Assembly (NCBI GenBank): GCA_030427935.1
Contig: JAUICI010000001.1
Coordinates: forward strand, 1 to 64,000
DNA length: 64,000 nucleotides
Reading direction: 5' to 3'
Source: Bacteroidia bacterium
Lineage (GTDB): Bacteria; Bacteroidota; Bacteroidia; Flavobacteriales_D; Crocinitomicaceae
Shown: positions 32,113 through 35,955 of the stretch, piece after piece
Layout of the letters: each line of letters begins with the position of its first letter
How positions within the stretch are numbered: position 1 is the first letter of the stretch
Translations under genes and position numbers: made by a program
Notes under the pieces: model-generated
Database searches by the model: none
The model's input: the letters and a program-made list of their open reading frames with translations, nothing else
What the model was told of the DNA's origin: nothing

Positions 32113-35100
32113 TCATAAAATCTCATGCTCTTCGCAGAACTTAATGAGTTCAGGAGCAGAGTGTAGATTAACTTTACTTAATATTCTCTTTCTGTGGGTA
32201 TCCACAGTTGTTTTGGCAATATTCAAATCATCGGCGATCATCTTGGATGATTTGCCTTCCTTAATTTTTTGGATGACTTCAAGCTCTCTTTTAGAGAAGA
32301 GCTTTCGCATGTGTCCGTTTACTCGAAGACCAATAATACAAATGTCATCGATTTGTTCCAGTTCTCCTTTCCAGCGATTAAACTCCAAATCTAGCATTTC
32401 CTTTTGGGTGTCCATTTCTTTGGACTCGATTTCCATTAGAAGCTTTTTGAAATTGGCGTATTTGTATTTTTTACCTTTTTCTCCACCAAATTGATCGGCA
32501 TAACCATCGGAGAAGAGGTAAATACAATCTCCAGGTTCCAGTTGGATTTCCGTAGTTTTAAAAGGCTCCATATGATCGAAAGCACCCACGGGTTGTTTGG
32601 AGGCTTTGTATTCGACGAGTTTTCTTTCTCCAACCTCCAGTGTTCTGAGTTCTTCTGAAGTGGACGTATCCGTATTGGTTACCCGATACAATGGATTATG
32701 TGCCCCTGCAAACCAGACTTTTCTGTCCATTAAATCCAAAGCACATAAGGCGATGTCCATTCCGTCTTTTATTCTACCCGCCGAAGCTTCAGCGAAGGAG
32801 GGGTCGGTGTCCTCGGATTGCTCAAAAGTGCTTTTCACAAGCTCCACGACTTTATCCAAAAGTAATCCCGGTTCATGAATTCCAAATTCTTTAATCGCTC
32901 GGTTCATGGCATTGGAACAAACCACAGAAACCATAGCTCCTGGCACCCCATGACCAGTACAATCCGCAGCAGCAAAAAGGACGATGGTTCTACCGTCTCT
33001 TTTGGTTGTTTCCATCCAGTAGAAATCCCCTGCAACAATGTCTTTGGGTTTATAGAAAATGAAAGAATCATTCAACCATTCCTTAACCAAACGAGGAGGA
33101 GGTAAAATGGCATTTTGAAGTCTTTTGGCGTAGGAAATGGAGTCTAGGATTTCTTTGTTTTTTTCTTCGACGATTTCTTTTTGATGATGGGCAATGTCTC
33201 TTTGTTTTTCAACTTCTTCTTTTTGCTCAACCACTTCTTTGGTGCGTTCCTCTACAGTGTTTTCCAACACCTTCTGTCTTTTGCGCATTTGAGCTGTTCG
33301 TCCTTTGTAGAAGGCAAAAAAGATGAGCAATAATCCAGCTCCAGCACTTCCTCTAAACCACCAGGTAGCATACCAAGGAGGATGAATCGTGAAGGAATAC
33401 TCATGAATTTCCGACTCAATGCCATAACCATTTACGGACTTAAATCTGTAAGTATATTTCCCCGGAGCAAGATTGGATAGTTGAACCGAATCCACATCAC
33501 TTCGAATCCATTTATCTGAACCTGAAGGCCCTTCCAATTGGTAGAGATAATAAACGGTTTCTGGTTCAAAATTCGTGATGGTTTCCATTCGGATAGTTAG
33601 GTTGTTTTGGTTGTAATCTAGATTTAGATCTCCTTCTAAGGTGGAGTCAGCAAAAATAAATTCTTTTTCGTTATCGAAGACTTTTACTGAACGGAATTTT
33701 GAGTTGAGGGAGGTGAAGGGTGGGGTGAAGGAAGTATTCATTGATTTGGCTGTTTTATCGGAAGCCACGAAGTAATTACTATGTTTTTTGATCCAAAAGA
33801 ATGGTGAAATTTTATCAGGAAACTCAAGAATTTCACTCAATTGAATTTTATTATTTCCAAAATCGATAGAAGCTATTTCGTAAATTATATTTTCTGAAAT
33901 AATGTAGATCTCGTCATCAGATTTATAGTCTATATAATTTACAAACTTTGTTTTATTCTTATGTTGTGGATGCAGCTCCTTTGTTTGCCCTGTTTCAAGA
34001 TTGTAGACGGAGATTTTTCGATTCGAGTTGATATACATCAATTTATTTGAATGGAAAAAATGTTTTGTTATGAAGTAGTCTTTGACATTCTCTGGAATAG
34101 AATCGAACTTCACCCAATTAAATTGTTCGGTTAAATCCCCGTTGGGGAAGAGTACAAACATTTTATTTTCTTTTGATAGTATATCAGCATTCTCAAGATG
34201 CAATCTAGATTTATTAGAAACCTTTAGCAGAATTTCAACCTCTTTTTTTGAGTTTAATTTAGCAAATGAAATAGAATCGGTTTCATGTAAGATCAATATT
34301 GAGCCAGCCTCATAAGCAAAATCTATACTAGTATAAATTTCTTGACCTCCAATCGATAGAAGGGAGTTGTTTTCAAGAATTTTTACTGTATTCGAATGTG
34401 TACGAATAATTAATTCTCCTCTGATTTGCCACCCAGCTGCGTAACTTGTCCTATATGAATCCAATAGCTTCCATTTTCTATCTAAAATAGAATACAGATA
34501 AAGTGAATGAAACGCACCGGAATTTCCTGAGTAATCTTCGTCAGAACAATCGATCAACAGAAAATTGCTATCTGACGCTGCGTAAATATAGGGCCCAAAA
34601 GGTCTATTGTCTTTATTTTTTGTTTCTATTTCTAAGGACTCAAAACTTAAAAAGGAAGCGTGAAGTTTTTTGATGATTTTTGATGAGTCCGTGTTTGTAA
34701 TCTCTTGAAAATAATTTCTAATTCTTCCGATTCCCCTTTTGTTGATAGCATATTTCGATGGGCTAACTTTAATTAATTTACCCCTCATACTATAGATCCA
34801 AATGTTTTTTTCCTTGTCCACAAAAATGGGAGCTATTTGATTGTAATTGTTTTTGGAGTGAAAAAGGATATATTCTTGGCCTTTGATATTCATTACAAAC
34901 TCAGAAAAACTCCTATCAGAAGAATTTTTTACATAGAACAATGTGTCCCCAAGAACCTGAATAAATGAGAAACTCATTGTTTGAATCCCTGCTATATCAT
35001 CATCATATTTTGTTTGGATAACACCTTTCTTAAGTTTGAAAAATGAGTTTTTATGGAAAAGGAAAGTTTCTCCATTTTGATTAATAACCTTAGTATCATC

Positions 35101-35955
35101 ATTCAACAGAGCAAACTCTAAAGTTTCTTTTAACACCCAGTTTTCATCAAAATATTCGATCCATTTTTTATCATATGATATGACGTAGAATCCACCAAAT
35201 TTATCTTCACAGATTTGACTTATAAAGGTATTTTTAATGTTGATAAAAACAGTGTCTAGTTGAGGAGTTATCATCAAGAACCCACCTGATTTTAGTCTCA
35301 AGTAAAGATTTTTTTGATCTCCAATTACAGGGTGACTAACATTTTCAAAAGCAATTAAATCAATGTTGTGTTTAGCATTTATCTTTGAAATAGTATCATA
35401 GTTAACTGGATTTAGGAGTTTTACCCTACTTCTTAAAATTTTGATAGAATCATGATTGTTATAAAATTTGATTTCCTCATCTTGTGGATATGAACATCCA
35501 AAATCCAAAAACAATTCCAATTTGTCTGCATTACCTATACCAGTGTGAAACTTTCCTCTAGTTTCGATTACAGTATCACCTTTTTCAATATAGCCTCTAT
35601 TATAGCAAAGATCGCTACCAATATTATTAATCTCTTCTATTTTCCGATACTTCTTTTTATCAAATAGAATTGTTGATTTCGATTTTCTTCCTTTAAAAAT
35701 TTCTCCATCAAATTCAATGTTCCTGCAAGAGAGCTTACTTGAGTCGGGCCAAAAATTTATTACTTCGTTTCCATTAATTCTATTGAAACCAATTTCATCC
35801 GCCACCCAGATATATCCTTCACTATCTTGCCAAATGCCACGAACATTATCACTCATCAAACCAAATTCTTTGTCGATTTTTGTGACCTTGTATTGGGAGA
35901 AAGCGACAATAGAGAATAGAGAAAAGAGGATGGAGAAGAGGGTTTTCATGAACAA
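32113..35955 (-). CDS. Membrane sensor with propeller, Y_Y_Y, SpoIIE-type phosphatase and LuxR-type DNA-binding domains
   Basis: 1280-residue single protein. A signal peptide (1-20) and a long periplasmic beta-propeller-like part (about 21-770) come first, with two-component-propeller strands such as GIWQDSEGYIWVADEIGFN and FVDKEKNIWIYSMRG. A Y_Y_Y domain (about 785-855), one membrane helix (about 864-882) and a coiled coil (885-945) follow. A PP2C/SpoIIE phosphatase (about 950-1215) keeps its metal Asp motifs GDFYW, AADCTGHG, FSDGYADQFGG and DDICIIGL. Last is a LuxR-type helix-turn-helix (about 1218-1280, SKRELEVIQKIKEGKSSKMIA). It starts 34 bases after the thioredoxin gene. A FAEASAG-containing insertion interrupts the phosphatase near residue 1055. 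Confidence 0.88.
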   Translation of the reverse strand: MFMKTLFSILFSLFSIVAFSQYKVTKIDKEFGLMSDNVRGIWQDSEGYIWVADEIGFNRINGNEVINFWPDSSKLSCRNIEFDGEIFKGRKSKSTILFDKKKYRKIEEINNIGSDLCYNRGYIEKGDTVIETRGKFHTGIGNADKLELFLDFGCSYPQDEEIKFYNNHDSIKILRSRVKLLNPVNYDTISKINAKHNIDLIAFENVSHPVIGDQKNLYLRLKSGGFLMITPQLDTVFINIKNTFISQICEDKFGGFYVISYDKKWIEYFDENWVLKETLEFALLNDDTKVINQNGETFLFHKNSFFKLKKGVIQTKYDDDIAGIQTMSFSFIQVLGDTLFYVKNSSDRSFSEFVMNIKGQEYILFHSKNNYNQIAPIFVDKEKNIWIYSMRGKLIKVSPSKYAINKRGIGRIRNYFQEITNTDSSKIIKKLHASFLSFESLEIETKNKDNRPFGPYIYAASDSNFLLIDCSDEDYSGNSGAFHSLYLYSILDRKWKLLDSYRTSYAAGWQIRGELIIRTHSNTVKILENNSLLSIGGQEIYTSIDFAYEAGSILILHETDSISFAKLNSKKEVEILLKVSNKSRLHLENADILSKENKMFVLFPNGDLTEQFNWVKFDSIPENVKDYFITKHFFHSNKLMYINSNRKISVYNLETGQTKELHPQHKNKTKFVNYIDYKSDDEIYIISENIIYEIASIDFGNNKIQLSEILEFPDKISPFFWIKKHSNYFVASDKTAKSMNTSFTPPFTSLNSKFRSVKVFDNEKEFIFADSTLEGDLNLDYNQNNLTIRMETITNFEPETVYYLYQLEGPSGSDKWIRSDVDSVQLSNLAPGKYTYRFKSVNGYGIESEIHEYSFTIHPPWYATWWFRGSAGAGLLLIFFAFYKGRTAQMRKRQKVLENTVEERTKEVVEQKEEVEKQRDIAHHQKEIVEEKNKEILDSISYAKRLQNAILPPPRLVKEWLNDSFIFYKPKDIVAGDFYWMETTKRDGRTIVLFAAADCTGHGVPGAMVSVVCSNAMNRAIKEFGIHEPGLLLDKVVELVKSTFEQSEDTDPSFAEASAGRIKDGMDIALCALDLMDRKVWFAGAHNPLYRVTNTDTSTSEELRTLEVGERKLVEYKASKQPVGAFDHMEPFKTTEIQLEPGDCIYLFSDGYADQFGGEKGKKYKYANFKKLLMEIESKEMDTQKEMLDLEFNRWKGELEQIDDICIIGLRVNGHMRKLFSKRELEVIQKIKEGKSSKMIADDLNIAKTTVDTHRKRILSKVNLHSAPELIKFCEEHEIL
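32779..32794. repeat. Palindromic insertion inside the sensor gene
   Basis: CGCCGAAGCTTCAGCG is a 16-base near-perfect palindrome in a locally GC-rich stretch. In frame it and its flanks encode DPSFAEASAGRI in the middle of an otherwise conserved EQSE...KDGMDIALC phosphatase segment. The frame is kept, so the gene stays intact. Confidence 0.6.

Follow-up and report, generated by a model that had tools for sequence, protein, structure and literature searches.

An open reading frame of the minus strand, at positions 32113-35955, occupies the locus within the stretch of DNA considered here, the window, which comprises 64,000 nucleotides (positions 1 to 64,000 of contig JAUICI010000001.1, GenBank assembly GCA_030427935.1) from a Bacteroidia bacterium belonging to the Crocinitomicaceae. 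The preliminary description of this DNA had reported the frame without its strand; the frame exists, and translation of the window places it on the minus strand, but its likely start is located slightly downstream of the first codon listed. This codon, TTG, adds two residues ahead of an ATG at 35949, which is the probable start and is followed by the signal-peptide-like stretch MKTLFSILFSLFSIVAFSQ. A plus-strand reading of the same span is ruled out by stops occurring throughout. Taking the ATG as the start gives a protein of 1278 amino acids, and all residue numbers are counted from this position. The features of the locus are the following:

32113..35949, minus strand: complete coding sequence (ATG at 35949, stop at 32113-32115, 1278 amino acids)
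35893..35949, minus strand: signal-peptide-like N-terminus, residues 1-19 (hydropathy maximum and sequence)
33640..35892, minus strand: putative periplasmic two-component-regulator propeller, residues 20-770 (sub-threshold Reg_prop, homologues above the cut-off, profile match to 3v9f)
33376..33639, minus strand: putative Y_Y_Y domain, residues 771-858 (sub-threshold Pfam match, 3v9f and 3ott matches)
33298..33369, minus strand: transmembrane helix, residues 861-884 (hydropathy, unbroken predicted helix 858-948)
33085..33297, minus strand: coiled-coil linker prolonging the membrane helix, residues 885-955 (predicted structure, 49-71% identity across relatives)
32320..33084, minus strand: SpoIIE/PP2C (PPM) phosphatase, SiaA-like, residues 956-1210 (Pfam, alignment and fold, metal Asp complete)
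32776..32808, minus strand: surface-loop insert of 11 residues in the phosphatase, TDPSFAEASAG (genomic repeat, alignment, model)
32299..32319, minus strand: short linker NGHMRKL from the phosphatase to the HTH, residues 1211-1217 (alignments)
32140..32298, minus strand: LuxR-type GerE HTH, residues 1218-1270 (Pfam and predicted structure)

The order of the domains, the membrane helix, the coiled coil and the LuxR-type HTH, as they had been proposed from a first reading of the sequence, all find confirmation in the Pfam matches, the hydropathy profile and the predicted structure. The fused architecture is far beyond chance.

The periplasmic sensor

The sensor half of the protein, initially described as a propeller followed by a Y_Y_Y domain, is putatively of the type occurring in the HTCS of Bacteroides. 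In the window protein itself, both domains fall below their Pfam cut-offs (Reg_prop, 19.1 bits for a cut-off of 20.4; Y_Y_Y, 18.0 bits for a cut-off of 26.6), but two homologues, the chains from genomes G183 (Reg_prop 22.0, Y_Y_Y 39.7) and G798 (62.3 and 48.5, respectively), exceed them. In addition, a profile built from three N-termini matches the ectodomains of Bacteroides HTCS (3v9f, E 2.5e-12; 3va6/3ott, E 9e-9), and 3v9f is the second PDB sequence match of the window protein, after 6k4e. The sensor evolves rapidly, the propeller region sharing 18% and 13% identity with its homologues. It is homology that supports the propeller, since the single-sequence fold of the 842-residue N-terminal sensor, with a pLDDT of 33, is meaningless.

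The membrane helix, the linker and the phosphatase

The SpoIIE domain is recognized with 66.9 bits (Pfam cut-off 25, E 3e-18). The Asp residues forming the metal site of SiaA from Pseudomonas aeruginosa, D457, D474, D534, D600, D604 and D653 (PMC7647112), correspond in the alignment to D975, D996, D1065, D1148, D1152 and D1201, respectively, and the metal Asp residues are intact, as had been stated earlier. The DxxGHG motif is also present, with H1000 as its His residue. Structure prediction, previously suggested for residues 950-1280, was run with AlphaFold on residues 855-1278 together with 47 relatives taken from the genome loci, and yielded a PP2C core and a four-helix GerE domain in a model that is confident nearly throughout (mean pLDDT 92.6, pTM 0.82). 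In this model, the membrane segment and the coiled coil form one continuous helix of 91 residues (858-948) that leads to the PP2C core. A Foldseek search with the model retrieved the PP2C domain of SiaA first (6k4e, E 4e-20, TM 0.89 on the target), followed by RssB, SpoIIE and RsbU-type domains. Similarly, 6k4e is the best PDB sequence match of the protein and SiaA its best NCBIfam match, restricted to the C-terminal part; this partial match to the SiaA equivalog NF038263 reaches 171.7 bits for a threshold of 700.

None of the aligned relatives has the insert TDPSFAEASAG (residues 1048-1058). The genome contains seven occurrences of the DNA that encodes it (CCTTCGCTGAAGCTTCGG and close variants), and the insert thus represents the in-frame arrival of a short dispersed repeat.

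The HTH tail

The GerE domain scores 60.3 bits (Pfam cut-off 23.5, E 1.4e-16). Its four helices are located at residues 1220-1274, the recognition helix at about 1246-1259, and sequence and predicted fold both show a complete HTH. The loss of essential residues from either the HTH or the phosphatase, named in the preliminary description as an observation that would tell against it, was encountered in neither the alignment nor the predicted fold. Profile and predicted fold both identify the window protein as a true member of the SpoIIE phosphatase family and, equally, of the GerE-domain proteins.

The HTH tail is conserved in all of the 11 fused chains identified so far, with the GerE consensus kept and the Thr residues of the TVDT motif in the recognition helix invariant (11/11). 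Synonymous sites are near saturation in the pairs of chains compared (pS mostly 0.77-1.0), while pN for the same pairs amounts to 0.08-0.19 in GerE and 0.14-0.21 in SpoIIE; for the window protein with G183, and for a TPR pair of the same genus, nonsynonymous divergence amounts to 0.30-0.53 for the sensor, 0.14-0.18 for the phosphatase and 0.08-0.17 for GerE. As judged from these divergences, the HTH is under purifying selection about as strong as that acting on the phosphatase, and is real in the evolutionary sense.

Distribution of the fused chains

The window's own genome (G000) contains 43 SpoIIE matches and 8 GerE matches, both of which occur together in only two chains. The other phosphatases read in this genome end about 10 residues past the last Asp pair, and the two fused chains extend 68 residues further, at identical spacing. 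Profile searches with the SpoIIE-GerE junction through roughly 1,100-1,200 distinct Bacteroidota genomes identified 11 chains in 10 genomes (G000 with two, G001, G045, G110, G155, G183, G798, G982, G1093 and G877, the last apparently identical to the assembly of isolate BCD18). Among the matches listed, a conserved-peptide scan of 84,980 species added only BCD18 to the fused chains then known. Scoring covered the top 13-22 candidates of each genome, and very different tails would escape the junction profile; the rarity figure therefore holds for the SpoIIE-GerE family of the window protein in Bacteroidota. Five other long LuxR chains, checked as possible missed fusions, are all devoid of a phosphatase. 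The survey proposed at the outset thus shows that the two domains seldom share a chain, SpoIIE by itself being very common in G000. No description of SpoIIE and LuxR/GerE in one chain was found in the open literature searched, where the paper richest in relevant terms deals with Campylobacterota (PMC9239204). The single receptor joining a sensor, a phosphatase and an HTH is a real, rare and selectively maintained protein, and a new combination of familiar modules.

Evolution of the fused module

Depending on the chain, two unrelated sensors are found on the same fused module, a propeller in three chains (window, G183, G798) and a TPR-type sensor in the other eight. In the SpoIIE-domain tree, nine fused chains form a supported clade (98/88) together with L015 (G000:C240), the closest paralogue of the window protein in its own genome, which is 69% identical in the phosphatase, carries a TPR-like sensor and is devoid of an HTH. 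L015 is placed beside the propeller members and thus probably lost its HTH and exchanged its sensor; no HTH remnant was found downstream of its stop. The chains from G982 and G155, the latter on a long branch, do not join this clade but are placed elsewhere in the tree, alongside a protein devoid of an HTH. In the HTH tree, all 11 HTHs group together weakly (89/0), the earlier nine-chain set having reached 95/94. The AU test did not reject a topology constraining nine fused chains and L015 to one group (p-AU 0.375). On the evidence of these trees, the core SpoIIE-GerE module has a common ancestry, and the simplest reading is a single fusion, after which modules were lost or exchanged. The separate position of G155 and G982 in the phosphatase tree leaves a strict single origin unproven, and two separate fusions may have occurred.

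Every metal Asp is kept in 10 of the 11 fused chains. In G982, Tyr replaces His in the DxxGHG motif. The G155 chain (L103:6656-8896, minus strand), a TPR-SpoIIE-GerE protein encoded by a 768-codon open frame, displays GNF instead of GDF, AYTGNS instead of DCTGHG, NMN instead of GMD, and ED at the last Asp pair. It is accordingly devoid of the equivalents of D457, D474, the His, D534 and D653, and its intact HTH gives the best GerE match among five homologues scanned together (E 6.5e-18), which makes it a candidate pseudo-phosphatase transcription factor. As read from the alignments, either half has been lost separately, the HTH in L015 and the catalytic residues in G155, which suggests that the two outputs both exist and can be separated.

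Two other genes of G000 deserve mention. Codon 225 of the TPR member at L031:2143-4791 (G000:C271) is an in-frame TAA. Its counterpart in G001, where the neighbouring genes are conserved, has an uninterrupted frame, and the G000 copy is either a pseudogene or an assembly error. In the TPR-SpoIIE gene L041:2734-5493 (minus strand, G000:C81), about 170 residues are inserted in frame in the phosphatase region. The insert encodes a DUF559 (Vsr-like endonuclease) domain, is flanked on both sides by copies of the palindrome CCCCTCCTT..AAGGAGGGG, and resembles a mobile endonuclease cassette that the gene has accommodated.

Comparison with known systems

With SiaA, which belongs to the SiaABC threonine-phosphorylation switch of P. 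aeruginosa, and with the RsbU-type PPM phosphatases, the window protein shares a sensor module, a helical linker and a SpoIIE/PP2C domain. SiaA in particular possesses the same set of metal Asp residues and the nearest solved fold (6k4e), and homologues of SiaB and SiaC are encoded in the window genome. However, the N-terminal sensor region of SiaA is different and its chain stops after the phosphatase, whereas the window protein combines an HTCS-like ectodomain with a LuxR-type HTH. The Bacteroides HTCS (3v9f, 3ott) have in common with it the ectodomain, of which the propeller and Y_Y_Y are putative in the window protein, the organization as a one-chain membrane-held regulator and a C-terminal DNA-binding domain, but they consist of a histidine kinase, a receiver and an AraC-type HTH where the window protein possesses a PP2C transmitter and a LuxR-type HTH; Pfam found no histidine kinase, receiver or AraC HTH in the latter. 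The window protein is neither a SiaA equivalog nor an HTCS. Among Bacteroidota proteins, the TPR-LuxR chains (L212-L215) and the TPR- or propeller-SpoIIE chains (L036-L038) each share two of its three modules, and none of those examined associates a phosphatase with an HTH.

Proposed mode of action

The homodimeric PP2C domain of SiaA contains Asp-bound Mg (PMC7647112). During the activation of RsbU, the linker forms a coiled coil and thereby brings the PPM domains into a dimer via the switch helices. This mode of activation is proposed to be general and is probably shared by many other PPM proteins (PMC12143880). The unbroken helix predicted here and the conserved linker are compatible with such a mechanism, by analogy with RsbU.

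The reading preferred here, to which a probability of about 0.5 is assigned, is that of a membrane-anchored receptor with two cytoplasmic outputs, a dimeric phosphatase of the SiaA/RsbU type and a pair of HTHs bound to DNA. The HTCS-like propeller and Y_Y_Y would perceive a signal, and the Y_Y_Y domain would connect to the membrane helix, continued without interruption by the coiled coil which, as in RsbU and SiaA, would pair the PP2C domains into a dimer and adjust their switch helices. Activated PP2C domains would then remove phosphate from Ser/Thr in a partner, the likeliest candidate being a SiaC- or STAS-type protein whose gene is located elsewhere. GerE or LuxR-type HTHs generally bind DNA dyads as dimers, and the two HTHs of the receptor, attached at the ends of the phosphatase dimer, would be aligned with a dyad close to the membrane. 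One signal would thus set a phospho-switch and direct transcription together, the added HTH giving the receptor a private output. The signal, the dimerization, the DNA binding, the phosphatase substrate and the coupling of the outputs are elements that we infer. The two outputs need not act together, since L015 dispensed with the HTH and G155 with catalysis. A broader proposal, somewhat more tentative, is that of a class of bifunctional receptors in which the PP2C dimer would serve both as an enzyme and as an allosteric clamp for membrane LuxR-type DNA binding, the class including pure pseudo-phosphatase transcription factors (G155) as well as pure phosphatases (L015).

Transcription could, alternatively, be the real output, with the PP2C domain kept mainly as a signal-responsive dimerization module that places the HTHs, catalysis being secondary or fading. 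The intact HTH of the catalytically degenerate G155 chain, the Tyr residue of G982 and the existence of degenerate PPM adaptors such as RssB from Escherichia coli (PMC12143880) are all in keeping with this. It is nevertheless rather unlikely, as only one member is clearly dead, the metal Asp set being complete in the others, and the phosphatase of the window protein is under strong purifying selection.

Conversely, dephosphorylation could be the real output, the HTH merely tethering or localizing the enzyme, or binding a protein instead of DNA. The single other HTH-bearing SpoIIE match of G000 indicates that phosphatases there normally work without an HTH, as does the closely related L015. A tail that evolves about as slowly as the phosphatase with its GerE consensus preserved, and that outlives catalysis in G155, renders this explanation distinctly improbable.

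Alternatively, the phosphatase might target its own chain or HTH, and so undo a Ser/Thr phosphorylation that blocks DNA binding. The invariant recognition-helix Thr and the mere seven or so residues joining the two domains would suit such an arrangement, which has little probability given that a Thr of this kind is common in ordinary LuxR proteins devoid of a phosphatase and that no evident kinase gene adjoins the window gene in the stretch read. Finally, an artefact or accidental readthrough fusing two genes, conceivable for an assembly fragmented into 289 contigs, is rejected, since 11 chains from 10 independent assemblies share an identical junction and spacing and a closely similar linker, and since the HTH tail is under selection.

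In the preferred reading of a receptor with two outputs, uniting a DNA-binding domain with a Ser/Thr phosphatase in the same membrane protein would enable a single signal to act on a protein-phosphorylation switch and a promoter simultaneously, and a transcription output would be added to the sensor-linker-PPM toolkit. The family moreover offers natural separation-of-function variants, a live phosphatase without HTH and an HTH with a dead phosphatase, which would allow a direct test of whether an adjacent output domain is governed by PP2C dimerization in the way proposed for catalysis.

Genomic neighbourhood and candidate partners

No conserved target gene was found near the propeller members, those of the window, G183 and G798 being located in unrelated neighbourhoods, and synteny occurs only for the TPR member, between G000 and G001. 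Two SiaC homologues are encoded in the genome, one of which (L207:4473-4853) adjoins a SiaB-like kinase (L207:4869-5411) and, like Pseudomonas SiaC, has Thr as residue 68; Ile replaces this motif Thr in the second. One free RsbW-like protein is also encoded in G000. Since these candidate partner genes do not adjoin the window gene, and since the 43 SpoIIE matches share few partners, the phosphatase substrate is a guess; many receptors probably feed the same switch.

With 43 SpoIIE matches for one SiaB-like protein, two SiaC and one RsbW-like protein, G000 displays a strongly many-to-few phosphatase network. In G183 (C14, C94, C4), SiaB-like DUF6272 domains are paired in single frames of 357-365 amino acids, which are probably tandem fused kinases.
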